DNA of 64,000 bases. It comes from Clostridiales bacterium (lineage in GTDB: Bacteria > Bacillota > Clostridia > Christensenellales > JAISNN01). A model generated the notes under the pieces. It worked only from the letters and a program-made list of their open reading frames with translations. It was not told the origin of the DNA and made no database searches. Location of the stretch: contig JAISNN010000088.1 in NCBI GenBank assembly GCA_031276195.1, positions 1-64,000 on the forward strand, written 5' to 3'. Positions 11,277 through 56,786 of the stretch are shown here, piece by piece (the first letter of the stretch is position 1; each line of letters starts with the position of its first letter). A program made the translations under genes and the position numbers.

Positions 11277-11499
11277 AAAAAGGAAAATAAAAAGCGTTTT
11301 TTGAATGGAAAGGTTTTGTAGAGAGTAACGAATAGAACGAAAAACGAAAGATATTTGTTAAGTAAAAGAGAATTTAAAACTAAAAGATATTTGTTTAATT
11401 AAAATGTTTTTTCCGATGAAAAAAGAAACGAAAAAGCGTTTTTTGAATGAAATTTTTATCGGTAAAAAAGTAAGGAAGTTATACGGGAATAATATATAT

Positions 11500-12615
11500 A
11501 TGAGTGTTGCGAAAAAGTATTTATTAAACGGTTCGATCGTCGTTACGGTTATCGATTCCACGGACATTTTACACGAGGCGGCGAGGCTGCACGGGTTGGG
11601 AGCCTTGCCCGCGGCGGTCTTGAACCGCGTTTTGACCGTCGGGGTCTTTATGGGGCGCGACCTGAAAAACGAGGAGGATAAACTGTCCGTAATCGTTTCG
11701 GGCGCGTCGGAGGACGGCTCGGGCGGCGAATCGGTGAAGATTGCCGTCGCCGCGAAAATGGATTCCGTCAAGGGATACGTCGAAGAAGGGCGGCTGCTTA
11801 TAAACGGCGAAGCAAAAAAATATTGCGAAAAAACGGATAACTATGAAAAAACAGACGGCGAAGCGGATTGCGGAAACGGCGGTAAAAAAATTTCCGAAAA
11901 TAAAATAAATTCCGAAAATGAAACGGATTCCGAGAATACAATAAACGCCGAATATAAGACGAACGGCGAAACGGAATGCAATGCCGCAAAAGAAATAAAT
12001 TCCGAACAAAAAATAAATTACGAAGACGAAACGACCGCCGCGACGGCATTCAAAAACGCCGCGGACTCCGCCGCGGGCGGCGAGGGATATATAACCGTCA
12101 TCAAGGATTCGGGAATGAAAGAACCATATACCGGACGGTCGGAATTGGTCAAAGGCGATTTGTCGTCCGATTTCGCCCTCTATTTCACTGTCAGCGAACA
12201 AAAACCCTCCGCCGTCGTCTTGGGCGAATATTTCAACGGAAAAAAAATACTCGCGGCGGGAGGTTTTTTTGTGCAGGTTCTGCCAGGCGCGGACGATTTT
12301 TTGATCACGATCGTGCAGGACATACTTAGAGATTTCGGCGATTTCGGAAAAATGCTCCGCGAATTAAAAACGCCCGACGCGATTATGGACACATATTTCG
12401 CGGACTTTGACGTGAAAAAAATCGACGAGTTCACGCCGCGTTATTTTTGCGGGTGCGGCGGGGAAAGAACGCGGAATATTATACGTATGCTGGGGCGCGC
12501 CGAAGCGTATGAAATCTTGAAAAACGTCGGAATGATCGAGGCGCGCTGCGACTTTTGCGGAAAGATATATCGATACGGAGCGAAAGAAGTCAAAGAAATT
12601 TTCGAACAAAAATAA
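11500..12615 (+). CDS. hslO: Hsp33-type redox chaperone with low-complexity insertion
   Basis: 'NGSIVVTVIDSTDILHEAARLHGLGALPAAVLNR', C-terminal 'CGCGGER...CDFCGKIYRY'; start at 'MSVAKK'. Confidence 0.9.
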   Translation: MSVAKKYLLNGSIVVTVIDSTDILHEAARLHGLGALPAAVLNRVLTVGVFMGRDLKNEEDKLSVIVSGASEDGSGGESVKIAVAAKMDSVKGYVEEGRLLINGEAKKYCEKTDNYEKTDGEADCGNGGKKISENKINSENETDSENTINAEYKTNGETECNAAKEINSEQKINYEDETTAATAFKNAADSAAGGEGYITVIKDSGMKEPYTGRSELVKGDLSSDFALYFTVSEQKPSAVVLGEYFNGKKILAAGGFFVQVLPGADDFLITIVQDILRDFGDFGKMLRELKTPDAIMDTYFADFDVKKIDEFTPRYFCGCGGERTRNIIRMLGRAEAYEILKNVGMIEARCDFCGKIYRYGAKEVKEIFEQK

Positions 12616-19879: not shown

Positions 19880-20014
19880 GAACTCGTATTTATAGGTAAC
19901 GGATTAAAAGTTGATTAATATAACATTTTAAAAAATATTAAAAAAAAGTATTGACAAACAAATAAATTTAAGTATATAATGTATTTAGATACCTAAACAG
20001 TTGCAGTAGTTGTT

Positions 20015-20240
20015 TGGAAAAAGCAAGCAAAGATATGACGGAAAGCAAGTAAAGTTATGACGAAAAGCAAGCAAAGATATAACGAAAAGCAAGCAAAGAT
20101 ATAACGAAAAGCAAGCAAAGATATAACGAAAAGCAAGCAAAGTTATAACAAAAAGCAAGCAAAGTTATAACAAAAAGCAAGTAAAGATATGACGGAAAGC
20201 AAGCGAAAACAAAAGAAAGGCATAACGAAAAGCAAAAAAA
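20015..20240 (+). repeat. Tandem array upstream of the MMPL gene
   Basis: About 9 copies of 'gaaaagcaagcaaagatataac'. Confidence 0.93.
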
Positions 20241-20363
20241 CGAGATATAAAAGCCTTATAAAGATTCGGTTTTTAGCATATAGATAGAAAAATATTTAAT
20301 AATCGGCGCGCGGAAAAAAAATTGCGGCTGCGGCGCGCGGAAACAAAGGAGTTACATAGTTTT

Positions 20364-23300
20364 ATGATTAAAAAAATTGCGGAATTTGTCGTGAACAAGC
20401 GGATTGCCATAGTCGTTTTGGTTTTGGCGTTCGCCGCGCTCTGCGGATATTGGACGACGAAAATTGAAGTGAATTACGATTTCATAAAATATCTGCAATC
20501 GGATACCGATTCGGTCAAGGCGATCGACGCTATGAAAGAGGAATTCGGAATGACGGGAACGTCCGAAGTTATGGTCAAAAATTTGACGCTCGGCGAAGCG
20601 AAAGAGATTCAAGGCAGGCTCGCGGACGTCGAGGGCATTAAGACCGTAAACTTTTTTAACACGCCCGTATACTTTCTCGACGAGGACGGCGACGGCACGG
20701 GCGACGCGCTCTTTAAATTGTTTTTCGACGGCGACGACTATTCGGTCAAGGGCGAAAACGTCGTTTCGGAGATCGGAGAAATCTTAAAAGATCACGATAT
20801 CGCTTTTAACGGCGCGCTGGTTCAGAACGTTGAACTGAAAAACAGGATTCAAGAGCAGATCCCGATGGCGACCGCCGTCGCTGTTTTGGTCGCGGCGATT
20901 ATCTTGATTTTGACTTCAAAATCGTGGTTCGAGGCGTTGATTGTAGGCGTGATGCTGGGCGTTGCGGTCGTCATAAATTTGGGGACGAATTATCTTCTCG
21001 GAGAAATTTCTTTCGTTACACAATCAATCGCGGCGATATTGCAACTCGCGCTCACGATAGATTATTCGCTTATGCTCCTGCATCAATACCGTGAGGAACT
21101 GTCTTTCGGCGCGGGCGCGGCGGACGCTATGAAAAACGCCCTCGCAAAAACGGCTTCGCCCATTTCGTCGTCGGCGTTGACGACCGTCGCGGGGCTGGGC
21201 GCGATTATGCTGATGAGTTTTACGCTCGGCTTCGATATCGGGCTGGTTCTCTCGAAAGCGGTTTTGTGCAGTATGGTTTCGGTCTTTTTGCTCATGCCGC
21301 CCCTGGTCGTCATATTCGCAAAACAGATCAAAAAATCGGAACATAAGGACATAATAAAAGAACCGAATAAGAAAAATACGAGATTCGCTAAGGGCATAAA
21401 CAAAATCAAAAAGCCCGCCGCGGTCTTTTTCGCGTTGGTTTTGATCGGATCGTACTTCGTTCAAACGGGCGTGAACTTTATTTATCTCGAAACCGCAAAA
21501 GATATGGTCGGAAAGAAAAACGCCGTTGAGGAACGCTTCGGATACAGCAACCTTATGATGGTTATGACGCCGAAAGCCGAAACGGATGAGGATTACGCGA
21601 AACATTCCGCGCTCGTCGAATGGCTCAAAACGCAGACGAATTCCGAAGGTAAACCCGTATACCGCGACGCTCTCTCCACCGTAACGCTGACGCGCCGCCC
21701 CGTGAACGCAAGCGAAGCGGCAAACCTGCTCGGAATCGACGAAAAATTGACGGGACAACTTTTCGGAATGTATTATCTCGAACGCGGAATCGCGGACGGC
21801 GGCGCGGAAGAGATGTCGATGAAAGAATTCTCCGCATACCTCAACGGAATCTTGTCCGGAAAAAACGAACCGCCCTTTGACTTCGATATAAGAGAGGTCT
21901 TGGGAGAGGAAACCGCGGACGTTTTGACGGGGCTTTTGGGCTTTATAGACGAAGGAATCAATGCGGACGGATTGTACGCCTTTTTGCAAAACGAGAGCGT
22001 TAAAAATCTCGGAATCGACCTTTCGGGGCTGCCGAAAGAATATATAAATCAAATTTTCGGAATGTATTACGCCGAAAAAGGACTGTTCAACGAAAAAGCC
22101 TCCCTCCGTGAGGTCATTAACTATCTCGACGAAAAACTCGAAAATCCGGGCGCGGACGGAATCGACGTCGGCGCGTTCTTGACGGAGGACGAAAAAACGG
22201 CGGTCCGCGCTTTCGCAAAACTGCTGAACGCTCTAAACGACGAAACGGGATTGTCCCCGGGCGATTTTTACGGCGTCTTGACGGACGGGGATATTCAATC
22301 TCTCGGGATATCGTTCGGAAATATCACGGAGGCGCATATAAAGCACGTCTACGCATACTATAATTTCCAAAAATTCCAAAAGGAAGGCGGAGTTTATAAA
22401 ATTTCCGTGTGCGAATTCGTCGGCTACCTCAACGAAATCGCGAAAGGCGGCGCGGAAGCGGAGATGATCAAGGGGATTTTAGGCGAAACGAATTTTGATA
22501 TCCTTATGAATTACGTTTCGCTCCTGAACGGCGTCATCGGCATAATTCCGCAAGAATATACGCCCGATGAACTATTCGATATGATTCAAGGCGGCGGTCT
22601 CGACGGGGCGTTCGGGCTGTCTTTCGCGGAGTTTCCGAAGGGATATATAAAGCAGTTGTACGGAATGTACTACTACGCGAACGGCTTTTTAGACGACGCG
22701 AAGTTTTCTATGTATGATTTGATCAAATATCTCGCGGAGGCGTCCGCCGGAGATGCCGAATCAAACGTCGACCTGAACGCCCTCTTGGGAAACGGCGGCG
22801 CGGACGTATTGCGGGCGGCGGCGTTTATGCTGGATCTTGCGCTTTCGGAAACGCCCGTTTCGCCGTCGGCATTCTTTGAGGCGGAGGAGTTTGAGGGGAT
22901 TTTGAATTCGTTCGAGGGAATCGGTGGCTATATCAACCACATATACGCGTATTATAATTTTAAGCAAATGACGGGAGATTATAAAATCACCCCCGGCGAC
23001 TTTATCGTCTATCTATGCGGAGCGGCGAGAGGAGCCGAAAACGTCAAAACGACGCTCGATATCGAAAACCTCTTAAAGGATACGGGCATAGACTTTGAAC
23101 TCGTACAAAAAGGCGCGGGAATGTTGGAAGCGGCGATCGCGCTCTTGGATAATACGGATAATACGTATACGCCGGAGGAATTTCAAACGGCTATAAAAAG
23201 CAGGCTTTCAAGTTACGGCGGCGACGCCGCGGACTTGGCGGAGAAAATCGATATCGCGTATATAAATCAAATCTTCGGAATGTATTACTACCACGACGAC

Positions 23301-26300
23301 AGAATGAACGGAGACGGATACGATAAGATAAATATGAAAAACCTTTTGGCGTTCGGAGACGGGCTCGTTTCGGGAGACATTCCTTTCCCGATCGACGTCA
23401 AAGAACTGCTCGGCGAAAACGCGGCGTTTTTGAGGGCGGCGAAAAGTTTCTCGGACATTTTGCAACCGTCAATACCGGATCAATATGAAAACGAATATAC
23501 TTATGACGGGCTTTATACCGCTTTGACGGAGGACAAGATAAAAAACGCGGTCGATATCACGAATATAGACGGAAAGGGAACGGGAATCACAAAGGACTAT
23601 TTGGAAATTTTGTACGCGTGGAAACAGTATAAAAAACACGGAATGACGCTCGGGACGTTGGATTTGACGGATGCGGTGAAAGCACTTTTTAAACTCGCGG
23701 ATATGGCGGGACGGGGAATAGATTCCTCTACGCAAAGTCTTATCAACGTAAGTGTCGCGGGTTTGATTTTGTTTAATCCCGATAAATACAAAGGGCTGAC
23801 ATGGGACAAAGCGGCCGACACCATCGTTCCGTTATCCGGCGGACAAGCAACGCGCGAGACGGTCGAACTCGCGTACGCCGTCGAATTCTTTGAAAAGCAA
23901 AGAATAGGCGTTAGCGACAACGCGGGCGATTTGTTCGCTTTTGTAGCGGACGAGATGACGGAGCCGGGAAATCCCGCCTATTTGGGAATCGTGAGCGATA
24001 TGCTGAAAGGCGGCGCGCTGAACCTCTTGAAAGCCGCCGTCAAAATGAGCGAAGAAGCGGAGATATGCAAAACGCATACGGAAATGGCGGAGACGCTGAA
24101 CGGCTACGCGGAAGTCTTCGGCTTGAAGGGCGAAAACGGAAAAGACGCGGTTCCCGACGCGCTCGTGAAACAACTGTATATACTCTATTGGGGAAACCGC
24201 GGTTTTTCAAATATGGAAAACAACAAGAAACCGAGGGATGTCGTTTTGAAAGACCTTTTGGAATATCTGTCGTCCGCGGTAACGCCCGAATCGGAAAACT
24301 TTGAGGAGTTTATATATAACAACGTTCTCGTTCCCGTCCTGTCGGGCTTTGTAAAGGAGGGCGCGCCGAAAGAGGATTCGGAAAACGAAGCGAAAAAACT
24401 TATCGCCCTCGCCGCGGGAATTTTTTCGGACGTCGATAAAAACCTCAAAACACCGCTGACATACGCCGAAACCGCGGAAATTCTGAAAGAATATATGTCC
24501 GTCCTTGCTACGGACGGGGAAATTCCCGTCACGGAACTTACCGAACAAGCGTACGCGATGTATTATTATAACGCCGAAACCGAGAAGGCTTTAAAAGGAG
24601 TTTTGTTGACGGATTTAGCGAAATTCTTAGGGGGATTGATCGACGAAAATCAAACGGCGTATAACCCCGTCATCGCGGACGCGCTCGGCGAAAACGCGGA
24701 CGCGGCGGCGGAAATTTTCGGAATCGTAAAGGAACTTTACGGCGATATAAATAAGCCGCTTTCCGTGTCCGAAACGGTCGAAAAATTGACGGAATATACG
24801 TCGGGTATGGACGGCGCGCTGAAAATCGACGGAGAACTTATCGAACAGGCGTGCATATTGTACCTTTCCGCGAATGATTATAAAGGGATCGGGTTTGAAA
24901 GAGCGGTTGCGGTCGCCGATATTCTCGGAGTGATTTCCGGTTCGCTCGAAAACGAGAACGGGCTTATATACGGAATCGTGTTCGGCACCCTCGCGGGCGA
25001 AAACCCCGACGAAACGAAAATCGCCGAAACGAAAGAAACAATCGAAACGATTAAAAATGCGGCTCTCGCCGCCGCGTTCTTAAATACGCAATACGATATC
25101 GGCGAAATCGCCTCTCTCTTGGAGGGCTTGTCGGAGATCGAAGGGTTGGATTTCGATATCGGCGGCGAATTGATCGAACAGGCGTTCGTTATGTACTTTT
25201 CGGGCAAAGGTGAAACCGCCGCGGAGCCGATCGGCTTTTTGGAAACCGTAAGATATATAAGAGATCTGATCGACGGCGACGGAAAGAACGATAACGCGCT
25301 GATCGCGGGCTTTTTGGGCGCGGACTTAAAGGACGCTTTGATTTTGGCGGAGAAGTTGGCGAAGGAAAGCGGCGATCCCGTTTCGTATGAGGACGCCGGA
25401 GCGTTGATCGAAAAATATTTGAACGGTTTGAACGGCGCGGATCCCGAAGCGGGCGCGGGCGTGTTCGGCGAAACGGATTTCGGTATCGCGGACGGCGCGG
25501 ACTATACCGCCCTTATGCTCCAAGCCTATATTATGTACGCCGGAAACAAAAACACCCTCCCGGCGCATAAAGCCGAATTAACGGACATTTTTGAATACGC
25601 CGTTTCGCTGACGGAGAACGGCGGCGGCGAATTCGGTTCGGTCATAGAGGGGCTTTTGGACGGGCTTTTCGACGGAGAATTATCTCCCGAAGCGGTCTCG
25701 GAATTGACCGAAAGCGTCCGCGCGTTCCTTAGCGGAACGAATTCAAAAAAGACCTATACCGATCTTGCGAACGAAATAAATTTACTCGCGGAAGCCGTTA
25801 AAGGGATCGCGGAAGACGCGGAAACCGCCGAAATCGACGCGCGTCTGTTCGAGCAAGTCTACGTTATGAAAATGTTGGAGGAAAATACTCTGCCGACGGA
25901 GAAAGTTACCGTTTCCGATTTGGTTTCATTCCTATACGAGATAATCGACGACGACATCGTTTCGGGCTTTATAGACGGCGGAATGCGCGCCGAAATAGAC
26001 GACTACCGCGATTCGCTGAATACCGCGGAGGCGATGTTCAACGGAAAAGAATATTCCAGAATGGTCTTTACGTTCGATCTTCCCGCGTCCGGGGACGAGG
26101 CTTTCGCTTTTACCCTCAGCCTCAAAGCGAAAGCGGAGGAACTCTTCGGACGGGACGCCAGAATCGCGGGGAACAGCGTCGTCTTAAAAGATATCAGCGT
26201 AAATTTTGAAAAAGATACGGTCGTAACCTCCGTCGCGTCTATTATATTTGTGTTTTTGATCATCGCGCTGATCTATAAATCGTTTATGATTCCCGTCATT

Positions 26301-26858
26301 TTGGTTCTGCTCATTCAAGCGGCGACTTGGATCGCATTCTCAATGGCGGTTATTCTCGGCGAACCCGTGTACTTTATGGCGTATACCGTGGTTTCGTGCA
26401 TACAAATGGGCGCGGCGGTCGATTACGGAATACTTTTGTCCACAAAATACCTGTATAACAGAAAGTTTATGAATAAAAAAGACGCGGCGGGCTGCGCCGT
26501 AAAAGATTCGTTGAAAACGATTTTGACCTCCGGTTCGATTATGGTGATCGCGGGCTTCATACTTTATATCGCGTCTACCACGCTGGTGCTTTCAAGTATC
26601 GGTATGTACATTTTCAGAGGCGTGGGAATGTCGATCTTGATGACGATCTTTATACTGCCCGCGCTGCTCTTAATCTTTGACGGGTGGATCGAAAAGACAA
26701 CCAAAAACGCGGACTTCTATAAGGGCGGCAAAACGATCGACGGAGGAGATTTTAAGTTTAAAGACGAGAACGGTGTTTCGATTCCGCTGGAAAGACAAAC
26801 GGACGAGAAAGGCGGCTTGTTTTTCGGGAGCGGAGAAACGGACGGAAATGAAAATTAA
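20364..26858 (+). CDS. Giant MMPL/RND-family membrane protein with repeat-expanded extracellular loop
   Basis: RBS AAAGGAG then ATG at 20364; two MMPL-like TM blocks ('ALTIDYSLMLLHQYREE', 'AAVDYGILLSTKYL') flank ~1500 aa. Confidence 0.9.
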   Translation: MIKKIAEFVVNKRIAIVVLVLAFAALCGYWTTKIEVNYDFIKYLQSDTDSVKAIDAMKEEFGMTGTSEVMVKNLTLGEAKEIQGRLADVEGIKTVNFFNTPVYFLDEDGDGTGDALFKLFFDGDDYSVKGENVVSEIGEILKDHDIAFNGALVQNVELKNRIQEQIPMATAVAVLVAAIILILTSKSWFEALIVGVMLGVAVVINLGTNYLLGEISFVTQSIAAILQLALTIDYSLMLLHQYREELSFGAGAADAMKNALAKTASPISSSALTTVAGLGAIMLMSFTLGFDIGLVLSKAVLCSMVSVFLLMPPLVVIFAKQIKKSEHKDIIKEPNKKNTRFAKGINKIKKPAAVFFALVLIGSYFVQTGVNFIYLETAKDMVGKKNAVEERFGYSNLMMVMTPKAETDEDYAKHSALVEWLKTQTNSEGKPVYRDALSTVTLTRRPVNASEAANLLGIDEKLTGQLFGMYYLERGIADGGAEEMSMKEFSAYLNGILSGKNEPPFDFDIREVLGEETADVLTGLLGFIDEGINADGLYAFLQNESVKNLGIDLSGLPKEYINQIFGMYYAEKGLFNEKASLREVINYLDEKLENPGADGIDVGAFLTEDEKTAVRAFAKLLNALNDETGLSPGDFYGVLTDGDIQSLGISFGNITEAHIKHVYAYYNFQKFQKEGGVYKISVCEFVGYLNEIAKGGAEAEMIKGILGETNFDILMNYVSLLNGVIGIIPQEYTPDELFDMIQGGGLDGAFGLSFAEFPKGYIKQLYGMYYYANGFLDDAKFSMYDLIKYLAEASAGDAESNVDLNALLGNGGADVLRAAAFMLDLALSETPVSPSAFFEAEEFEGILNSFEGIGGYINHIYAYYNFKQMTGDYKITPGDFIVYLCGAARGAENVKTTLDIENLLKDTGIDFELVQKGAGMLEAAIALLDNTDNTYTPEEFQTAIKSRLSSYGGDAADLAEKIDIAYINQIFGMYYYHDDRMNGDGYDKINMKNLLAFGDGLVSGDIPFPIDVKELLGENAAFLRAAKSFSDILQPSIPDQYENEYTYDGLYTALTEDKIKNAVDITNIDGKGTGITKDYLEILYAWKQYKKHGMTLGTLDLTDAVKALFKLADMAGRGIDSSTQSLINVSVAGLILFNPDKYKGLTWDKAADTIVPLSGGQATRETVELAYAVEFFEKQRIGVSDNAGDLFAFVADEMTEPGNPAYLGIVSDMLKGGALNLLKAAVKMSEEAEICKTHTEMAETLNGYAEVFGLKGENGKDAVPDALVKQLYILYWGNRGFSNMENNKKPRDVVLKDLLEYLSSAVTPESENFEEFIYNNVLVPVLSGFVKEGAPKEDSENEAKKLIALAAGIFSDVDKNLKTPLTYAETAEILKEYMSVLATDGEIPVTELTEQAYAMYYYNAETEKALKGVLLTDLAKFLGGLIDENQTAYNPVIADALGENADAAAEIFGIVKELYGDINKPLSVSETVEKLTEYTSGMDGALKIDGELIEQACILYLSANDYKGIGFERAVAVADILGVISGSLENENGLIYGIVFGTLAGENPDETKIAETKETIETIKNAALAAAFLNTQYDIGEIASLLEGLSEIEGLDFDIGGELIEQAFVMYFSGKGETAAEPIGFLETVRYIRDLIDGDGKNDNALIAGFLGADLKDALILAEKLAKESGDPVSYEDAGALIEKYLNGLNGADPEAGAGVFGETDFGIADGADYTALMLQAYIMYAGNKNTLPAHKAELTDIFEYAVSLTENGGGEFGSVIEGLLDGLFDGELSPEAVSELTESVRAFLSGTNSKKTYTDLANEINLLAEAVKGIAEDAETAEIDARLFEQVYVMKMLEENTLPTEKVTVSDLVSFLYEIIDDDIVSGFIDGGMRAEIDDYRDSLNTAEAMFNGKEYSRMVFTFDLPASGDEAFAFTLSLKAKAEELFGRDARIAGNSVVLKDISVNFEKDTVVTSVASIIFVFLIIALIYKSFMIPVILVLLIQAATWIAFSMAVILGEPVYFMAYTVVSCIQMGAAVDYGILLSTKYLYNRKFMNKKDAAGCAVKDSLKTILTSGSIMVIAGFILYIASTTLVLSSIGMYIFRGVGMSILMTIFILPALLLIFDGWIEKTTKNADFYKGGKTIDGGDFKFKDENGVSIPLERQTDEKGGLFFGSGETDGNEN
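21700..25960 (+). repeat. About 14 degenerate ~100-aa protein repeats inside the MMPL gene
   Basis: Motif recurs every ~300 nt: GQLFGMYYLERG, YINQIFGMYYAEKG, HIKHVYAYYNFQK, YIKQLYGMYYYANG, YINHIYAYYNFKQ, YINQIFGMYYYHDD, YLEILYAWKQYKK, VELAYAVEFFEKQ, VKQLYILYWGNRG, TEQAYAMYYYNAE, IEQACILYLSAND, IEQAFVMYFSGKG, MLQAYIMYAGNKN, FEQVYVMKMLEEN. Confidence 0.88.
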
Positions 26859-27953: not shown

Positions 27954-28877
27954 ATGGACGGATTGAAGCTAAACGCCTTATGCGTAAAAGCGGTCGATTA
28001 TAAGGACAACAAAACATTGCTTACTTTATGCACCATAGAGAAGGGCAAAATCGGCGCGGCGATAAGCGGAGTAAAATCCGAAAAATCAAAGTTACGGTTT
28101 GCGGCTTCTCTTTTGTGCTTCGGCGAATATATTTTTTCGGAGCGCGGCGGCCGCTATACCGTTACGGGCTGCACCCTCACCGACGGTTTTTTTGAGGCGC
28201 GAAACGGCGTCGAACGACTGTATTCCGCGCTGGCGGTAACGGAAATCTTGGACAAAACGACGGAGGAGCATACGGATATTTCCGCGAATATCTATTCCGC
28301 TTTGAACGCCTTGAAAAATATCGCATACGGGGAAAATCCGCTCGGCGCGCTTTTGGAATATACGGTTGCGGCGTCGGCGGAGGCGGGGTACGCTATCGAT
28401 TTGAAAACCTGCGCGGGGTGCGGCGCGCCCGCGGCGGAAGGGTGGTTCGACGCGGAGACGGGAGGCGGAGTTTGCGGGGCGTGCAGAACGCGCAATTCGG
28501 TCGGAATGTCAAAGGGCGCGTTTAGGCTGCTATATAACACGGTATATAACAAAAAGCGCGGTATAGAACCGCGTGAAAACGGCGTTTTAAATTCCGCGAA
28601 TAGCGGCGCGAAAACGCAAAAAAACGACGCTTTGAATTCGGAGGATATCGGCGCGAAAGCGCAAGGGAATGAGGTTTTTAGTTCGGAGAATAGCGGCGCG
28701 AAAACGCGGCGAAACGACGCTTTGAATTCCGGAAACGGCAGTATCGAAATACATAAAAACGACCTTGAAGATAATTTATATGAATGTTTGAGAGTCGTAA
28801 ATTCCTATTTTTCCGCGTGCAACGAGGTTCGTATAAACGCCTTGAATCAGTTGCTGTCTTTGAGATTTTTTAAGTGA
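27954..28877 (+). CDS. recO: DNA repair protein RecO with repetitive insertion
   Basis: 'LNALCVKAVDYKDNKTLLTLCTIEKGKIGAAISGVK', CxxC zinc motif 'CAGCGAP...CGACR', 'LNQLLSLRFFK'. Confidence 0.88.
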   Translation: MDGLKLNALCVKAVDYKDNKTLLTLCTIEKGKIGAAISGVKSEKSKLRFAASLLCFGEYIFSERGGRYTVTGCTLTDGFFEARNGVERLYSALAVTEILDKTTEEHTDISANIYSALNALKNIAYGENPLGALLEYTVAASAEAGYAIDLKTCAGCGAPAAEGWFDAETGGGVCGACRTRNSVGMSKGAFRLLYNTVYNKKRGIEPRENGVLNSANSGAKTQKNDALNSEDIGAKAQGNEVFSSENSGAKTRRNDALNSGNGSIEIHKNDLEDNLYECLRVVNSYFSACNEVRINALNQLLSLRFFK

Positions 28878-31146: not shown

Positions 31147-32430
31147 ATGATTTATTTGGATTATGCGGCGGATACCCCCGCGGACGAAGCCGTTTTGAAG
31201 GTTTTTTTGGAAACGCAAAGGGAATTTTTTGCCAATCCGAATTCCTCTCACGCCTTAGGCGCGGCGGCGGCGGAAAGGCTGAAAACGGAAATTGAGAAAA
31301 TTAAGAGTTTTTTTGAGGGCGCGGAAGACTATGAATTCATTCCCACAGCGACCGCGAGCGAGGCGAATAATCTCGCTTTGAGGGGAATAGCCGAAAGTTA
31401 TAAAGAAAACGGAAAACATATAATATCCACATATTTGGAGCATCCGTCCGTAGGCGGCGCGCTTACGTATTTGCAGGGGAGGGGCTATGAGGTCGAACTC
31501 GTCCAGGTCAAAAAAGACGGAAAAATCGACCTCGAACACCTCGAATCGCTGATGAGAAAGGATACGGTTTTGGTTTCGGTGTGCGCGGTCGACAGCGAAT
31601 TAGGGACGGTTCAGCCGATCGGGGAGATTGCGAAGATCGTTTCAAAATATCCGTTATGCCGTTTCCACACGGACGCGGCGCAAGCGGTCGGGAGGCTTTC
31701 GGAATACAAAGATTTGACGCATAAAGATAAGGACGGGGATAAAGACTACGGAAATGGGAAATTTCATACGGACGCGGCGCAAGCGGTCGGGAGGCTTTCG
31801 GAATACAAAGACTTGACGCATAAAGATAAGGACGGGGATAAAGGCGGCGGAAAGGATAAGGATGTTAAATTTTCACTTCAAGGTATTTCTTGCCTATCGT
31901 TCGCCGCGCATAAATTTTACGGATTGAACGGCGCGGCGTTTTTGGTTCGTCATAAAAAAACGGTTTTAACCCCTTTGATTCACGGAGGGAGCAACGCTTC
32001 TTTGTATCGCGGGGGAACGCCTTCGCTGCCGCTCGCCGCGTCCGCAAGAGAGGCTATCGAACGCGCGTATTCGGAGGCGGAAACGCGGTATAGAAGCGTC
32101 CTTTTTCTCAACGTTTTTTTGAGAGATGAATTGTCAAAAATCAAAAGGATCAAGATAAACAGTCCGAAAGACGCGTCGCCTTATATCCTCAATATAAGCG
32201 TCGACGGGATCAAGGGCGAAGACACAAAGGACGCGCTCGGCAAGCGCGGAATCTGCGTGTCGGTCAAGTCCGCCTGCTCCGTCAAAAATGTGCCGTCAAA
32301 GGCGGTCTATGCCGTTACGGGCGACAAAAAACGCGCCGCGTCGTCTTTCCGCGTCAGCCTTTCGCACTTGACGGCGCGAAGCGAAGCGGAGGAATTCATA
32401 AGAGCGGTGAGGGAGATTTGCGGCGAATGA
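31147..32430 (+). CDS. Cysteine desulfurase/class V aminotransferase (NifS-like) with in-frame 33-aa duplication
   Basis: 'MIYLDYAADTPADEAVL', 'FHTDAAQAVG', 'SFAAHKFYGLNGAAFLV', 'GGTPSLPLAAS'. Confidence 0.93.
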   Translation: MIYLDYAADTPADEAVLKVFLETQREFFANPNSSHALGAAAAERLKTEIEKIKSFFEGAEDYEFIPTATASEANNLALRGIAESYKENGKHIISTYLEHPSVGGALTYLQGRGYEVELVQVKKDGKIDLEHLESLMRKDTVLVSVCAVDSELGTVQPIGEIAKIVSKYPLCRFHTDAAQAVGRLSEYKDLTHKDKDGDKDYGNGKFHTDAAQAVGRLSEYKDLTHKDKDGDKGGGKDKDVKFSLQGISCLSFAAHKFYGLNGAAFLVRHKKTVLTPLIHGGSNASLYRGGTPSLPLAASAREAIERAYSEAETRYRSVLFLNVFLRDELSKIKRIKINSPKDASPYILNISVDGIKGEDTKDALGKRGICVSVKSACSVKNVPSKAVYAVTGDKKRAASSFRVSLSHLTARSEAEEFIRAVREICGE

Positions 32431-36477: not shown

Positions 36478-39400
36478 ATGAAAAACTTTGTTGCAAAAAC
36501 CCGGACGCGCCTAATCAAATACATAACCGTCATAGCGGCGATAGTCCTGACGGGCGGGCTCGGCTCGCTCTTTACCGCCGGGCAATTAAGCGGAGAGGGT
36601 AAGTTTATCGGCGGTTCGGCGCGTGAAAATACCGTTTCGGCGGCTAAGGTTAACGTGGACGTTCCGACGTTCAGGATCGATAATATCGAAGGAACGGGCG
36701 CGAATTTGAGAATCGGCGTTACATTGGTAAAGGTAACGCTCAAGATGAACGCCGATTCCGAAGACTACGCCGACGGGGAAATCACCGCAATCAAAGATTC
36801 GCAAGAAACGATAGCCAACGTTTCCCATACCGGTCTTTGGACCGCGTTTGCCGCGAAGTTGGGTTACGTTAAAGACGTCGGGGCGTTTTGGGAGGACGAG
36901 AAGCCCACGGGGATTATGTTCGGAGACGGTACGACGCCTCTTTCGATTCCCGAATGGGGCAAGAAAGTTCCGTTTTTTACGATGAACCCGAAAAATAAAA
37001 AGGACGTGATAATTTTCGGTCAAGCCGCTGCCGCTTCCGCGGATAATAACTTGGAAACCGAACCGCTGATCTATTATGATCCCGTATCCGCGGCTGGTTT
37101 GGCGGATCTGTATATCTCGAAATCGGTTAAACTGACAAGCCGCCTTACCTCCGTATTGAAGATCGGCGGGACGGGCGTCGGAAAGATATGTATCAACGGT
37201 GAATTGAAAAAAATCGAAGACGCTCCGAAGAACGTTAATCCCGTCGTCGAAGTCGCGACCTCCGCGTCTATGACGCAATTTTCTTGCGGCGCGAAAATCG
37301 AAAACCAAGGGAGCGGCTACGGCGTATCCTTTACGGGAAAGTTTCGCGGCTCCGCTCCGACGTTTACGGGGAGTATAATCACGGGAATAGAGGGGGAAGA
37401 GACCGGCGACGCGGGGCTTTATTTCGGCGCGGAATGCCGCTTTACCGAAGCCTATTTAAACGCGGCGGTAATTAAAAATATCGGCGTTAAAAAAGAGGCT
37501 TACGCCGCCGAGTTTAACGGACGTCCGAAGGTAACCGTGGGGAACGGCTCGCTTATCGAAAGCGGCACTGCGGTAACGTTAAAGATCAATCTCGACTCTA
37601 CTCCCTCTCTGTTGAACTTCAAAGAGGAACTTATAGTCAAAGGAAAGTCGCGGATCGTAAATACGAACGAGTCGGACGGCAAGGCGTTGCTGGTCGACAA
37701 GGGGCGCGTTCATATACAAAACGAAGGGACGACGGTCGAAAGCCGCGGCGAAAAAAGCAATACCATATATCTCAAAAACCAAGCCGAAAACGTCGCTATT
37801 TTGCAGGTTAAGGTGTCGGACGGCGCGCTCGTAAAGGGGAAGGGTACGGTCGTCTATGCCGATACTGAAAAATTAGGCGCGGGCTCGGGCGGCACGATCG
37901 GAGAGGAATGCGACAACGGGGTCGCGGTCGGAAGCGGCGGCAGAATCGAAACGGAGGGAAACGGCGCGGACAACGCGGCGGTTTTTCTAAAAAACGGGGC
38001 GGCGGCGCGCATTATCGACGGAAGCGTCGTGTCGAAAGGCGTAAGTTCTTGTATCAGAATGGAAAATAATAATTCCGCGTCGAAGATTGTAGGCGGCAAG
38101 TCCGAAATCGTCAACGAATATACGGGGGATTCCGCCGCGAATTATATGATTTATATAAAGGAAAGCCCCGATTTGATCCTCAATATCGAGGGAGCAAGCG
38201 TCGTATCCAAAGCCAAAGACGGAGGCGGAATCTATCTGGACGGCGCGGCTCTGTCGATCGTCGCGGAAGCGAGACTTAATGCGAATATAGGCAAATATCC
38301 CGCCGTATATCTGAAAAATAACGCGCGTATCCTTGTCAAAAACGGGCATATAACGGGTATAGTTCAGTCCGGCGCGGACGCGGATTTGCGCGGAGTTATC
38401 GTCAACGATTCGGAGAGAAAAGGTACGGCGGACGATAAGGACGGCGCGGTATTTATAACGGACGGCGGAAAGGTGAGCGCGGAAACCGCGGAAGGCGCGT
38501 CGCTTTTTGTTCCCGCGGTCTATTCGACGGACGGAACGGTGCTGATTTTGAACGGGGACGCCGATAACGGCATAACCGTAACGGCAAAAACTAACGCGGA
38601 TAAGATGTATAAAGGAACTATAATGCTCGACGGCGAAAACGCAAGCCTCTATATCGAAACGAAACAAACGTCTTCCGCGGTCGTTTCGGAGGGAACGGGT
38701 CCGTTGATTTATAACAAAAGAGGGAACGCCGCCGATTACGGCGGAGTTTACGGTAACGCGGTCGGCATAAAAAGCGGAATCGTGGGATCGGGTACGGACG
38801 GAGAGAGGGTAACGATCGAAACCGTGTGCGGAGGCGTATACGTCGCGCCGGGCGCGTCCGTCGGCGGTTATTGCGGCAAGAACGCGGAAAAGGGCATAAT
38901 ATTCGCATACGGCAGTTCCGAGATCATAGTCGAAGGTACGGTCAAGTCCGAAAAGGATTACGACGACGGCGCAAACGCGGTTTATCTCTCCGCGGGTACG
39001 CGCCTGCATTTGAAGGGCGCGGGTACGGCGAAAATTCAAGGAGCGATAAATATCGCGGAGGACGGCGGCGCGTCCAACAGAACTATGTCCGCGGATTTCA
39101 AACCCTCGGAGAGCGGAGGTAAATTGACTTTCGCCGTGAGGGATCGGGACGCGCGCGGCAAGTTTATTCTGTTTTACGCCCCGGCGAATCAAAGTTTGAG
39201 TACGGATCATTTCGCCGCTTATAAAATCACAAAAAAAGACAAGATGAAACTCGACGTAAAAAGCGTGCCGAACGGGGACGAAACGGGCAAAAACGACATT
39301 GCGGTAGATATAGAAACGGAGGAAATTAAAATCGAAAAGATCGTTATTTCATCCAAAACATACGACAAAAGCGACGACGTTCTCGATACGCAGACGGTGA

Positions 39401-42123
39401 GCGTAACTTTCAAAAAAGCGGGCGGCGACGGCGCGGAAGTTACGGTTTCGTTTAAGATAATTTCCTTTAAATATGCAAGCGCGAACGCGGGAAAAGACAT
39501 AGAGGTTTCGGGGACGGTCGAATTGAGCGACGAGGATAAAGATTTTTATCATTTTGCCGTCGATAATGAAAAAGTGCAGTCGATCGATATAACCGCGAAG
39601 GCGGAAATCACCCCGAAAGAGTTGACGCTGACGGGCGTAACCGCGTCCGATAAGGTGTACGACGGAACGGCGGAAGTAACGACGCTGACGGGAGGAACGA
39701 TAGAGGGGGTCTTGGACGGCGATACGGTGGACTTTGAATTGTCGGACGGAACGACGGAAAATCGAAAGACGGGAGAGAATAAAAAGGTAACGTATAAGGC
39801 GGTATTGAGCGGAGAGGACGCCGGAAATTATACGGTAAAAAACCAAAACGAAGTCAAGATCAATATCACCGCAAAAGAAGTAGATATAACGGGATTGTAC
39901 GCCGATAATATGACGTATAACGGAAGTACGGAAGTTAAAATCTTAACCGATAAGGTAAAAATCTCGGGATTAGAAACGGTCGATAACGGAAAGGTAAGCG
40001 TCGAAGTAAAGAACGCAAAAGTTTCAAATAAGAACGTCGGAGACGGGAAAGCCGTAACGTATACGGTCAATTTGACGGGGGACGAAGCGGAGAACTACAA
40101 GATTAAAAACCAAAACGAAGTCAAGATCAATATCACAGCAAAAGAAGTAGATATAACGGGATTGTATGCCGATAATATGACGTACAACGGAAGTACGGAA
40201 GTTAAGATCTTGACCGATAAAGTAAAAATCTCGGGCTTGGAAACGGTCGATAACGGAAAGGTAACGATCGAAGTAAAGAACGCGAAAGTTTCAAATAAGA
40301 ACGTCGGAGACGGAAAGGTCGTAACGTATGCCGTTAGTTTGACGGGGGACGAAGCGGAGAATTACAAGATTAAAAACCAAAACGAAGTCAAGATCAATAT
40401 CACAAAAAAAGAATTGACGATAGCGGGAATCAAGGCGGTTGACAGAACCTATAACGGCGAAAAAACGGTCGCTTTGGATCTTAGCGGAATGGAGGTAAAA
40501 GGGCTTATCGAGGGCGACGAGGTTACGGTTTCGGCGGATACGTTCGGGTACGTTGAAAGCGCGGAGGTCGGGAGCGGCAAAAAAGTTGCGGTCGGATACG
40601 AAGTTTCGGGCGCGGACAAGGAAAACTACACCTTTGCCGATATCGGTTACGTGACGGTGAATATCACCGCCGCCCCCGCCGAACCGGAAAACCCCGAAAA
40701 TCCCGAAAACCCCGAAAATCCGGAAAATCCCGAAAATCCTGAAAACCCCGAAAATCCCGAAAATCCCGAAAACCCGGAAAATCCCGAAAAAACGATCGAC
40801 GGAACTAAGGAAGCCGAAATCGACGAATTTTTGAAAAAATACGGCGGCAATACGGCGGAATTGGTTTACGACGCGAAAGACCATGCGAACGATCTTAACG
40901 GTAATTTGACCGAAATCAAAAAGATTGAGGGAATCGCGGACGCGGAGTTAGTCATAGAGCAAGGCGGCGCGGTTGTAAGCGCGATCAAAAACGCGGGAAC
41001 GTATACCCTGACCTTGACGATAAAGACAATTACGGGCGAAAAATCGGGCTGGACTTTCAATGACAAAACGACGGAAAAGGCGGTAACTTGGACGGTTCGG
41101 ATCAAAAAAGCGGCGGTAACCGTAACGGTCGAAGCCGATAACAGAGAGTACGACGGAACGAATACGGTGAAAATTCATATCGATAAAGATAAGATTTCGG
41201 GAATACTCGGAAGCGACGATTTGACTATCACCGCGGAAACGGGAACAACGGCGGACGCGGGCGTGGGTAAGGACAAGCCGTTCACGCCGAACGCGGTCAT
41301 AACGGGAGCGGACAAAGACAATTATGAAATAGTCTTTAAAGGCGCGACGGTTACGATCAAGGCGACGAATACGGAAAATCCGCAGCCCGGCGAAAAACCG
41401 TATGTCATCGGCGGAGAGGTGATCGAAGCCGGGATCGAAGCCGCCGAAACGGAAAACGCTCTCAAAGCGGATTACGACGGAGCGGCGCATACGGACGAAG
41501 CGTTGGAGGGCTTACTCGGCGGATTGAAAGGTATCGGCGGAATCGCGGATGCGGTTGTCAAGGGCTACAAAAAAGCGGACGGAAACGCGGTTGACGCGAT
41601 GAAAGACGCGGGAACTTACACCGTCGAGATCGAATTGACCGCCGACGAAAAAGCGGAAGCGCCCGCGTATGCTTGGGCGTTTGCGGACGGCGAAAAGACT
41701 TATACCGTATATGTAACCTATACGATCGGCAAGATTAAGTTGACGGTGAAGGGTATAACGGCGGTTGACAGAGTGTACGACGGGACGATGAAGGTTGATT
41801 TGAACACGGACGGAATGACGATCGAAGGGTGGGCGACGGATGACGACGAAGCAAAATTCACCCTTATGATCGCGCCGAAAGGAACGGTCGGCAGCGCGGA
41901 CGCGGGAACGGACAAAACCGTTACGTTAGACATAAGCGGAACCGCGCTCGGAAACTACGTCGTCGAGTATGCCCCCGTTACGGTAAACATTCTTGCCGCG
42001 CCCGAAGAAGAAGGGCTTGGCTCTCTATGGAGTTTATTCCTGCTCGCATCGTTTACGGGTTTTGCCGTGTATTGCTTGTTTGCGTATATCGCCCAAAAGA
42101 GAGAGGTGAAGAGAAGAAGGTAA
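36478..42123 (+). CDS. Large secreted, membrane-anchored surface protein with beta-helix-like N-terminal half and YDG domains
   Basis: N-terminal TM; 'VYDGTAEV', 'TYNGSTEV' x2, 'TYNGEKTV', 'EYDGTNTV', 'VYDGTMKV'; (NPE)n linker; C-terminal 'LWSLFLLASFTGFAVYCLFAYIAQKREVKRRR'. Confidence 0.88.
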   Translation: MKNFVAKTRTRLIKYITVIAAIVLTGGLGSLFTAGQLSGEGKFIGGSARENTVSAAKVNVDVPTFRIDNIEGTGANLRIGVTLVKVTLKMNADSEDYADGEITAIKDSQETIANVSHTGLWTAFAAKLGYVKDVGAFWEDEKPTGIMFGDGTTPLSIPEWGKKVPFFTMNPKNKKDVIIFGQAAAASADNNLETEPLIYYDPVSAAGLADLYISKSVKLTSRLTSVLKIGGTGVGKICINGELKKIEDAPKNVNPVVEVATSASMTQFSCGAKIENQGSGYGVSFTGKFRGSAPTFTGSIITGIEGEETGDAGLYFGAECRFTEAYLNAAVIKNIGVKKEAYAAEFNGRPKVTVGNGSLIESGTAVTLKINLDSTPSLLNFKEELIVKGKSRIVNTNESDGKALLVDKGRVHIQNEGTTVESRGEKSNTIYLKNQAENVAILQVKVSDGALVKGKGTVVYADTEKLGAGSGGTIGEECDNGVAVGSGGRIETEGNGADNAAVFLKNGAAARIIDGSVVSKGVSSCIRMENNNSASKIVGGKSEIVNEYTGDSAANYMIYIKESPDLILNIEGASVVSKAKDGGGIYLDGAALSIVAEARLNANIGKYPAVYLKNNARILVKNGHITGIVQSGADADLRGVIVNDSERKGTADDKDGAVFITDGGKVSAETAEGASLFVPAVYSTDGTVLILNGDADNGITVTAKTNADKMYKGTIMLDGENASLYIETKQTSSAVVSEGTGPLIYNKRGNAADYGGVYGNAVGIKSGIVGSGTDGERVTIETVCGGVYVAPGASVGGYCGKNAEKGIIFAYGSSEIIVEGTVKSEKDYDDGANAVYLSAGTRLHLKGAGTAKIQGAINIAEDGGASNRTMSADFKPSESGGKLTFAVRDRDARGKFILFYAPANQSLSTDHFAAYKITKKDKMKLDVKSVPNGDETGKNDIAVDIETEEIKIEKIVISSKTYDKSDDVLDTQTVSVTFKKAGGDGAEVTVSFKIISFKYASANAGKDIEVSGTVELSDEDKDFYHFAVDNEKVQSIDITAKAEITPKELTLTGVTASDKVYDGTAEVTTLTGGTIEGVLDGDTVDFELSDGTTENRKTGENKKVTYKAVLSGEDAGNYTVKNQNEVKINITAKEVDITGLYADNMTYNGSTEVKILTDKVKISGLETVDNGKVSVEVKNAKVSNKNVGDGKAVTYTVNLTGDEAENYKIKNQNEVKINITAKEVDITGLYADNMTYNGSTEVKILTDKVKISGLETVDNGKVTIEVKNAKVSNKNVGDGKVVTYAVSLTGDEAENYKIKNQNEVKINITKKELTIAGIKAVDRTYNGEKTVALDLSGMEVKGLIEGDEVTVSADTFGYVESAEVGSGKKVAVGYEVSGADKENYTFADIGYVTVNITAAPAEPENPENPENPENPENPENPENPENPENPENPENPEKTIDGTKEAEIDEFLKKYGGNTAELVYDAKDHANDLNGNLTEIKKIEGIADAELVIEQGGAVVSAIKNAGTYTLTLTIKTITGEKSGWTFNDKTTEKAVTWTVRIKKAAVTVTVEADNREYDGTNTVKIHIDKDKISGILGSDDLTITAETGTTADAGVGKDKPFTPNAVITGADKDNYEIVFKGATVTIKATNTENPQPGEKPYVIGGEVIEAGIEAAETENALKADYDGAAHTDEALEGLLGGLKGIGGIADAVVKGYKKADGNAVDAMKDAGTYTVEIELTADEKAEAPAYAWAFADGEKTYTVYVTYTIGKIKLTVKGITAVDRVYDGTMKVDLNTDGMTIEGWATDDDEAKFTLMIAPKGTVGSADAGTDKTVTLDISGTALGNYVVEYAPVTVNILAAPEEEGLGSLWSLFLLASFTGFAVYCLFAYIAQKREVKRRR
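39841..40400 (+). repeat. Near-identical 267-bp (89-aa) YDG repeat units
   Basis: 'aaccaaaacgaagtcaagatcaatatcac' at 39841, 40108 and 40375. Confidence 0.92.
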
Positions 42124-54854: not shown

Positions 54855-55154
54855 GACGCGCTTTTTTATACCCGTTACGCTTTCAAATCATATTTGACCG
54901 GCGATGCCGCAATCCGTTTAATTAATTTTTTTTGCGGCGCGTCAAAATGCGGCGCGTTTGCATAGTATTCTAATATTTCCGGATAATAGAATACTTAATC
55001 TGTTTAAGTATTCTATTATCTATAAGATTTACGGGGTAAATTTTAGAATATATAATCTGTTTATATATTCTAAAAGACCTTTAAAGAGATAAAAACGTCA
55101 AAAAATATAGAAAAAAACGCTTTTGAAGCGAATATAAAAATAAGGTGATAAAAA

Positions 55155-56786
55155 ATGAAACAACTTGTCGAACTCTTAAAAAATGTCAAAATCGTGAAAA
55201 AATGTGGGGCTATGCCTCTTGAAATTACCGACCTTGCGATTGACTGCAAAAAGGTGAAAAACGGAGGAATTTTTATCGCGGTCAGAGGATCCGCCGCGAA
55301 CGGAAACGACTATATTTTTGACGCGCTAAAAAACGGAGCCGCGCTGATTGTGTCGGACGACGAAAGAGCGTTAAAAAAAGGAATCGGGAATTTTTCGGAG
55401 AAAGAAACCGGATTAAAAAACCGAACGGCTGATGCCGGAGGTGAAATAACGCCGAAAGAGGAAAGCGGAAATTATTCGGAAAACGAAACGCAAAACGTTT
55501 GCGGAGGTGAAATAACGCCGAAAGAGGAAAGCGGAAATTATTCGGAAAACGGAATTGAAATCCCGTACATAATAGTCGAGGACGCGAGAGAGGCATACGC
55601 TTTCATCGCGGCGAACTATTTCGGAAACCCCGCGGCGGGTATGCGGTTCATCGGGATTTCGGGTACGAACGGAAAGACTACGATAGCGCATATGATATAC
55701 CATATATTATATTCAAACGGCATAAAAACGGGGCTTATCGGCACGATCGGAAACATTATCGACGGCTTGCGCGGGGAGACGGATATGACTACGCCCGATC
55801 CGTACGAACTTTTTGCCGTTTTGAAAAAAATGAGAGATTGCGGAACGGAAGTCGTCGTATCGGAGGTTTCGGCGCACGCGATATACCTAAAAAAGATAAA
55901 CCCGATCATCGCCGACGTGGCGGTTTTCACAAATTGTTCGCAAGATCACATAGATTTTTTTAAGACGATGGAAAAATACGCCGAAGTCAAAAAGTCGTAT
56001 TTCACAAAAAAACACGCGCGGAGCGTCGTTATAAACGCCGACGATTCGGTTGGCGTGGAGATTATCAACGGCTCTGACGCGAAAGTCATAAGTTACGGAA
56101 TCAAAAATCCGTCCGACGTGTTCGCGATCAATATACGCCTTTCTATGGCGGGTTCGGGTTTTTTTGCCAATCTTTTCGACGACGTGGAGGAAATCCGCCT
56201 GCCTATACCCGGGCTTTTCAACGTATATAACGCTCTCGCCGCGATGACGGCGGCGCGGCTCTTGAATATATCGCTGAAAGATTCCGCGGAAAGCCTTTTG
56301 AGTCTGCCCGAAATTCCCGGACGGTTCAATCTCTTGACGGCGGAAAAATGCGGCTTTGTCATAGACTACGCGCATTCTCCCGACGGTCTGAAAAAAATTC
56401 TCATAGCGGCGAGGGGGATCACCAAAGGACGGCTGATATGCGTATTCGGGTGCGGCGGAAACCGCGATAAAATTAAACGCCCGATTATGGGGCGCGTCGC
56501 CGCGGACTACGGCGACTTTACAATTCTCACGTCCGATAATCCGCGCTTCGAGGAGCCGGAAGATATAATACGCGATATCGAAAACGGCTTAAAGGGTATA
56601 ACGGATCAATATATGAATATAATAGACAGAGAAAAGGCGATAAAAAAGGCGTATGAAATAGCCGGAAAAAACGACCTTATCGTCGTCGCCGGAAAGGGAG
56701 CGGAGGATTATATAGATATTAAGGGCGTGAAATACGAATACGGCGACAGGAGAGTTATAGAGGAAATTATCGCATCCGAGCGTTGA
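55155..56786 (+). CDS. murE: UDP-N-acetylmuramyl-tripeptide synthetase (MurE) with a 22-aa tandem duplication
   Basis: 'GISGTNGKTTIAHMIYHIL', 'DYAHSPDGL', 'TSDNPRFEEPEDIIRDI'. Confidence 0.93.
   Translation: MKQLVELLKNVKIVKKCGAMPLEITDLAIDCKKVKNGGIFIAVRGSAANGNDYIFDALKNGAALIVSDDERALKKGIGNFSEKETGLKNRTADAGGEITPKEESGNYSENETQNVCGGEITPKEESGNYSENGIEIPYIIVEDAREAYAFIAANYFGNPAAGMRFIGISGTNGKTTIAHMIYHILYSNGIKTGLIGTIGNIIDGLRGETDMTTPDPYELFAVLKKMRDCGTEVVVSEVSAHAIYLKKINPIIADVAVFTNCSQDHIDFFKTMEKYAEVKKSYFTKKHARSVVINADDSVGVEIINGSDAKVISYGIKNPSDVFAINIRLSMAGSGFFANLFDDVEEIRLPIPGLFNVYNALAAMTAARLLNISLKDSAESLLSLPEIPGRFNLLTAEKCGFVIDYAHSPDGLKKILIAARGITKGRLICVFGCGGNRDKIKRPIMGRVAADYGDFTILTSDNPRFEEPEDIIRDIENGLKGITDQYMNIIDREKAIKKAYEIAGKNDLIVVAGKGAEDYIDIKGVKYEYGDRRVIEEIIASER

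Follow-up and report, generated by a model that had tools for sequence, protein, structure and literature searches.

The stretch of DNA analysed here, which we call the window, comprises 64,000 nucleotides of contig JAISNN010000088.1 from a Clostridiales bacterium, and carries on its forward strand a gene for an MMPL-family transporter in which fourteen tandem repeat units interrupt one porter domain (Table 1). The gene is a single open reading frame (ORF) with an ATG start, a ribosome-binding site (AAAGGAG) and zero internal stops; a TTG at 20322 is a possible alternative start. Pfam detects the MMPL family (PF03176) with E=9.6e-44 and 150 bits, against a curated cut-off of 20.5, in two stretches (residues 45-324 and about 1924-2108) with no known family between them, and in NCBIfam the protein lies near HAE3/ActII/HpnN-type MMPL transporters, under every curated cut-off. 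The protein is a member of the MMPL family, within the RND superfamily.

An MMPL core split by a fourteen-unit array

Hydropathy analysis shows two large loops, one between transmembrane segments (TM) 1 and 2 and one between TM7 and TM8, each bordered by hydrophobic segments, in keeping with the 12-TM layout of MMPL proteins. The second loop holds about 1500 amino acids with zero TM segments; the whole span separating the two MMPL halves covers residues 344-1876. The full MMPL fold is seen in a structural model of a relative, described below. The Asp-Tyr pairs of TM4 and TM10 are invariant in four orthologues of the genus, and their equivalents are near-invariant across 24 relatives. In MmpL3, such a pair acts as the proton relay.

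Using an iterative hidden Markov model (HMM), we found exactly 14 diverged units of about 105 residues each, spaced 87-125 residues apart and all located between TM7 and TM8. When an HMM was trained solely on the units of other genomes, it recovered all 14 in order, with E-values of 8e-20 to 1.8e-3. Across 200 shuffled inserts, the best single domain reached 8e-5 and three domains in all fell below 1e-3, while the reversed insert gave a best value of 0.085. Units 7-9 and 11 are weak singly (E 6e-6 to 2e-3) and are supported by their register and by orthologues; with a broader HMM of the whole family, 12 of the 14 units score.

Units 1-6 resemble one another (Z up to 23), units 9-14 form a second set, and units 7-8 belong to neither; the closest pairs are 2-4, 3-5 and 1-6. 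The array, which is acidic (isoelectric point 4.2), is not detected as a tandem repeat at the DNA level, and its pattern fits old block duplications followed by divergence. A first-pass annotation, made from the sequence alone, had described two MMPL-like TM blocks around some 1500 residues, with about 14 tandem units of about 100 residues in a single extracellular loop that were amplified and then diverged, and our analysis agrees with each of these points. It had also divided the array into first-six and last-six blocks, which hold up, and assigned a shared EQA motif to the last six, which is only half correct: units 10-12 carry EQA exactly, and units 13-14 have LQA/EQV.

Table 1. Features of the MMPL gene and its promoter region in the window, with loci of related operons in other genomes. 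All repeat-unit rows rest on the iterative HMM and the HMM built from units of other genomes.
Feature	Position	Strand	Basis or remark
Sigma-A type promoter	19951..19980	+	TTGACA-18-TATAAT, 12 of 12
Palindrome-like element GTATATAATGTATTTAGATAC	19972..19992	+	over -10 and start
Leader tandem array	20019..20204	+	22-bp x 8.5
MMPL-family RND transporter gene with 14-unit insert	20364..26858	+	one uninterrupted ORF, 2164 aa
MMPL half 1: TM1, porter loop 1 (no insert), TM2-6, Asp-Tyr D233-Y234 in TM4	20364..21395	+	Pfam, hydropathy, invariant residues in orthologues
TM7 and first beta-alpha-beta half (PC1-like) of porter domain 2	21396..21713	+	hydropathy; homology to G001:C107 model (strands 383-390/410-415 before units)
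Repeat unit 1 (aa 451-548)	21714..22007	+	
Repeat unit 2 (aa 549-646)	22008..22301	+	
Repeat unit 3 (aa 647-749)	22302..22610	+	
Repeat unit 4 (aa 750-845)	22611..22898	+	nearest unit 2
Repeat unit 5 (aa 846-954)	22899..23225	+	nearest unit 3
Repeat unit 6 (aa 955-1067)	23226..23564	+	nearest unit 1
Repeat unit 7 (aa 1068-1154)	23565..23825	+	diverged; matches G005 unit 5
Repeat unit 8 (aa 1155-1255)	23826..24128	+	most diverged; E 7e-4 with independent HMM
Repeat unit 9 (aa 1256-1380)	24129..24503	+	E 1.5e-3 with independent HMM; matches G005 unit 6
Repeat unit 10 (aa 1381-1480)	24504..24803	+	
Repeat unit 11 (aa 1481-1591)	24804..25136	+	E 1.8e-3 with independent HMM
Repeat unit 12 (aa 1592-1706)	25137..25481	+	
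Repeat unit 13 (aa 1707-1816)	25482..25811	+	
Repeat unit 14 (aa 1817-1895)	25812..26048	+	continues directly into porter strand; orthologous to relatives' last unit
Second beta-alpha-beta half (PC2-like) of porter domain 2	26049..26198	+	homology to G001:C107 model (strands 827-834/862-865)
MMPL half 2: TM8-12, Asp-Tyr D2020-Y2021 in TM10	26199..26702	+	Pfam, hydropathy, invariant residues
Conserved operon of single-unit MMPL and surface protein	L124 (G433); L044, L123, L125, L126, L183-L185, L187, L191, L194, L196		

We compared the window's genome (G000) with five congeners (G001-G005), giving six genomes of the genus. Three congeners encode full-length orthologues of the same design with 8-10 units (G005, 1740 amino acids; G003, 1714; G004, 1513), and those of G001 and G002 are partial. 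Most units match by position in G005 and in the two partial orthologues. These data bear on whether the gene could be an assembly or annotation artefact in which two MMPL genes were fused around unrelated sequence. The contigs of G001 and G002 do end inside the array, as such an artefact might produce, but the orthologues in G005, G003 and G004 are intact, the same design occurs in other orders, and G+C content is fairly even across the ORF. An assembly fusion, which the first-pass annotation had raised against itself, is ruled out by the three full-length orthologues, and we consider an artefact of any such kind next to inconceivable.

Between G003 and G004, the insert is 59% identical, with nonsynonymous (dN) and synonymous (dS) divergence of 0.30 and 1.60, and the N-terminal core is 77% identical (dN 0.155, dS 1.21). 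Overall, insert dN/dS is about 0.19-0.25 (dN 0.30/0.19; dS 1.60/0.77). A ratio of about 0.2 indicates that the insert is under purifying selection, looser than that on the core.

Distribution and structure of the repeat unit

Our searches for the unit covered the order (248 genomes), the class (291), the phylum (399) and a second order (197). Among these approximately 1,100 genomes the unit is sparse, and every credible match lies inside an MMPL protein at the same position. The slot holds 1, 3, 5, 7, 8, 9, 10 or 14 copies, the window's 14 being the most seen: many MMPL proteins of about 800 amino acids in Clostridia carry a single copy, and others carry 3-10. Loop length rises with unit number, from mostly 99-204 residues with no unit (326 in G058) to 151-226 with one, 321-337 with three, 465-595 with five, 646 with seven, 778-1151 with eight to ten, and 1532 with the window's 14. 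Two weak single matches (G303, G447), to a WYL-type regulator and to an ABC ATPase, were dismissed as chance, and the long RND paralogues of the genus (C69, C104 and C35; 1600-1750 amino acids) were rejected as relatives, with zero units inside.

A tree built from transporter cores without the insert contains three unit-bearing groups: a large single-unit clade; a 3-9-unit clade that spans several families and includes a second gene of the window's genus; and the window's orthologues, with a 3-unit metagenome-assembled genome from sediment placed nearby at low branch support. Multi-unit arrays occur in several orders; by the tree, high copy numbers have arisen, or been kept, in two clades. Within the 3-9-unit clade, G965 scores a single unit, so unit loss may also occur.

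Judged from these sequence comparisons, the unit is best described as an element of the second porter domain that has been multiplied to 3-14 copies in two separate clades. The suggestion that the protein defines an undescribed RND subclass therefore does not stand: the core is an ordinary MMPL protein with both Asp-Tyr pairs, and many Clostridia MMPLs carry the unit once, in porter domain 2. The window protein is a real, undescribed MMPL variant, and a new class of RND transporter is not supported. Our literature searches, which were limited in coverage and do not prove absence, turned up no published description of such repeats.

To view the unit in its structural setting, we used an AlphaFold2 model of a five-unit relative (G001:C107, 1050 amino acids) built with 24 sequences. 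The model has a mean predicted local distance difference test score (pLDDT) of 84.9, with most of the array at 72-92, and shows four helices of 8-21 residues in each unit. Beta-alpha-beta elements border the array on both sides (residues 383-415 before and 827-865 after), indicating that the units are spliced between two halves of porter domain 2. Foldseek ranked MmpL5 and MmpL4 first for this model, followed by HpnN and MmpL3. A model of the window insert itself agrees in having all-helical secondary structure; its Foldseek result was set aside as meaningless at the low confidence of that model.

No repeat family in Pfam or the PDB accounts for the unit. Among 32 units searched against Pfam, no family was matched by more than two and none was credible; a PDB search with the unit gave no credible full-length match, and a viral structure library returned nothing significant. 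We considered an EF-hand-like pair because the model shows helix-loop-helix spacing and paired bridge residues. A targeted hhalign comparison with an EF-hand lobe gave P=3e-4 and a score of 22, versus at most 11.1 for shuffled columns, and lambda repressor scored about as well as single EF lobes. The unbiased unit searches of PDB and Pfam returned no EF-hand.

The genome of the window is rich in tandem repeats. The window contains 30 tandem arrays in 64 kb (10.5% of bases), and a further 75 kb of the same genome (loci L045-L047, L057 and L246) contain 39 (14%; 5.2 per 10 kb); array density is 4.7-5.2 per 10 kb here versus 0-0.6 in most congeners (3.2 in G004). In-frame arrays in the window include a repeated HTDAAQAVGRLSEY segment (31669-31853) in a cysteine desulfurase-like aminotransferase (31147-32430), a 45-bp x 3.4 array (28576-28729) in RecO (27954-28877), an 18-bp x 8 array (11883-12024) in an Hsp33-like protein (11404-12615), and a doubled GGEITPKEESGNYSEN in MurE (55155-56786). 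At 36478-42123 lies a gene for a probably secreted protein of 1881 amino acids with at least six YDG domains and DNA repeats of 267-bp x 2.2 and 9-bp x 11.6.

Such a genome raises the possibility of a near-neutral ratchet, in which tandem duplication of a harmless domain increases copy number without added function. The extraordinary abundance of tandem repeats, some of them inside housekeeping genes, would fit, as would the different copy numbers of the paralogue in close species (5 versus 7). On the other hand, the 14 units are too diverged for DNA-level detection and so predate the present repeat process, most match by position across species, the dN/dS ratio signals constraint, and multi-unit arrays recur in two clades and several orders. 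We regard a ratchet as distinctly improbable.

Promoter element, surface-protein gene and neighbourhood

The MMPL gene is preceded by a sigma-A type promoter overlapped by a palindrome-like element (Table 1). In the window's genome, only one other site lies within one mismatch of the palindrome, and it is in the promoter of a contig-38 gene of the PadR family. We detected an element of this type in 18 of 18 aligned promoters of mmpL, padR and acyltransferase genes from the six genomes of the genus, in every case at the -10 or just after it. The regulator matches PadR; the condensation-domain acyltransferase matches PF00668 and WS_DGAT_C, is present in one copy in each of the six genomes, and is absent from two others of the order. 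Sharing of the element by mmpL, the PadR gene and the acyltransferase suggests a regulated lipid exporter, and the PadR protein probably regulates MMPL expression. Mycobacterial sulfolipid offers a parallel, its synthesis and export being coupled through PapA acyltransferases and MmpL8 (PMC6996325), and by analogy the likely substrate here would be an acylated lipid. The transcript leader also contains a 22-bp array found nowhere else in this genome and not seen in the leaders of MMPL orthologues. Separately, REP-like intergenic palindromes (AGAATATATAATCTGTTTATATATTCT), often paired, occur at 54985-55075 and at positions 2576 and 2712 of L267, among other places upstream of murE and of a gene on contig 49, and are more numerous in G005.

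The shared promoter also bears on the alternative that the array is a surface recognition or adhesion module, contacting cells, host surfaces or wall polymers with the MMPL protein as its anchor. A large, acidic, fast-evolving extracytoplasmic region that varies in copy number between species is what one might expect of such a module. Yet across the genomes searched the units occur only in MMPL proteins whose relay residues are conserved, no adhesin contains them, no Pfam binding domain matches them, and the promoter element is held in common with a lipid-type acyltransferase. We therefore think adhesion rather unlikely; promoter and structural evidence favours export of a lipid-like product over the capture of substrate or contact with cells that the first-pass annotation had suggested.

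The window gene stands alone. Upstream are spoIIR, a cell-wall hydrolase gene, ypeB and an MGMT-like gene, and downstream is recO; a GH20 gene is also among the neighbours. Gene order varies between congeners, and we rejected both a local partner and a conserved neighbourhood. Many relatives have a divergent TetR-type gene. At 18 of 21 single-unit MMPL loci we found an adjacent gene for a surface protein, which is fused to the MMPL gene in one case (G433), compared with 0 of 12 multi-unit loci in the tree. Where complete, this protein has 1050-1310 amino acids, a signal peptide, repeats, a coiled coil and a C-terminal TM segment; its domain labels are weak, and we read its repeats as GLUG-like. 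The clade-level contrast between single- and multi-unit loci suggests that the repeats may take on a task for which other MMPLs use a partner protein. The G433 fusion is a protein of 1921 amino acids (L124, 6063-11840). A second MMPL of the window's genome (G000:C80; L046, 4561-7227 and 7227-9641) carries no units, and directly after it lies a gene for a protein of 805 amino acids with internal repeats, a signal peptide and a C-terminal TM segment.

A proposed export stalk and known MMPL systems

We propose that the window gene encodes a proton-driven MMPL exporter of the RND superfamily, controlled by PadR, whose second porter domain bears a 14-unit stalk that guides a lipid-like product outward, and we give this proposal slightly less than an even chance of being correct. 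Transport itself is an inference: the Asp-Tyr pairs conserved in TM4 and TM10 suggest a pump driven by protons, which would extract an acylated, lipid-like molecule from the outer leaflet. The stalk may then receive this molecule or direct it outward from the membrane to enter or cross the wall, doing a job perhaps done by the separate surface partner in single-unit relatives, much as the coiled-coil insert serves mycobacterial MmpL5 and MmpL10.

Several observations weigh against this proposal. The model of window residues 360-1160 is unreliable (pLDDT 49.7; predicted template modelling score 0.35), and its shape is unusable. The first-pass annotation had pictured a helical solenoid; all-helical units are borne out, confidently only in the five-unit relative's model. 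The evolutionary rate of the insert is about double that of the core, and we found neither biosynthetic genes nor a partner gene beside the window gene. Loss of the partner follows clade boundaries and may represent one event, not many independent ones. Finally, the palindrome is imperfect in MMPL promoters and resembles palindromes scattered between genes of G000 and G005, one of which precedes murE in the window.

Little is understood of how bacteria with a single membrane get lipophilic products past it in the absence of TolC-like partners. A more specific idea, which we hold to be doubtful, is that a single RND subunit carries a length-tunable repeat stalk that replaces the partner and takes a lipid-like substrate across the wall of a single-membrane cell, with reach set by unit number (1 to 14). 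If true, this would be a solution unlike both tripartite pumps and the MmpL coiled-coil tube. Within a single transporter fold, the family forms a natural series of 0, 1, 3, 5, 7, 8, 9, 10 and 14 units in which the partner gene is correspondingly present or absent, making stalk length, partner dependence and export directly testable.

The closest known systems are mycobacterial MmpL5, MmpL4 and MmpL10, which like the window protein combine an MMPL core with an insert in the TM7-TM8 porter domain; MmpL5 and MmpL4 are also the best Foldseek matches of the unit-bearing relative. MmpL5 carries a 196-residue coiled coil in this domain, deletion of which abolishes efflux and which is proposed to be a conduit (PMC12501195), and the extension of MmpL10 forms a trimeric tube (PMC12183618). 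Their insert projects away from the membrane, as that of the window protein probably does. Given the need for the MmpL5 insert in efflux and the MmpL10 tube, the insert here most likely extends the path outward from the porter domain.

The same comparison gives rise to another reading, in which the insert never contacts substrate and serves as a scaffold for oligomerisation or assembly, keeping MMPL trimers together or docking envelope enzymes. The coiled-coil insert of MmpL10 drives trimerisation (PMC12183618), and single-unit relatives co-encode or fuse a separate surface protein. However, the units are compact four-helix domains in the relative's model, not heptad coiled coils, and we identified no binding partner; a scaffold seems to us improbable. 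The MmpL5, MmpL4 and MmpL10 insert is a single antiparallel coiled-coil hairpin (about 196-255 residues) that trimerises into a tube, whereas the window insert comprises 14 tandem units (four-helix by the relative's model) over about 1450 residues without sequence relation to it, and no MmpS gene was found among the neighbours of the window gene. The array is a second, unrelated type of insert in the domain that bears the mycobacterial coiled-coil tube.

HpnN and MmpL3 have the MMPL fold and Asp-Tyr relay of the window protein. They are not known to carry a comparable repeat insert, in line with the Foldseek comparison. Nearer relatives are the single-unit Clostridia MMPLs (G369, G255, G474 and the fused G433), which have the same core, unit and slot but only one unit in a loop of about 170 residues; they are co-encoded with the surface protein that multi-unit forms lack, and several have a divergent TetR gene. 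The multi-unit Clostridia MMPLs (G466, G1005, G420, G111, G947 and G001:C107) carry 3-9 tandem copies in the same slot. They form a clade separate from the window gene, with fewer copies and mostly with a divergent TetR gene, whereas the window gene has no adjacent regulator and instead has its promoter element in common with the padR gene.

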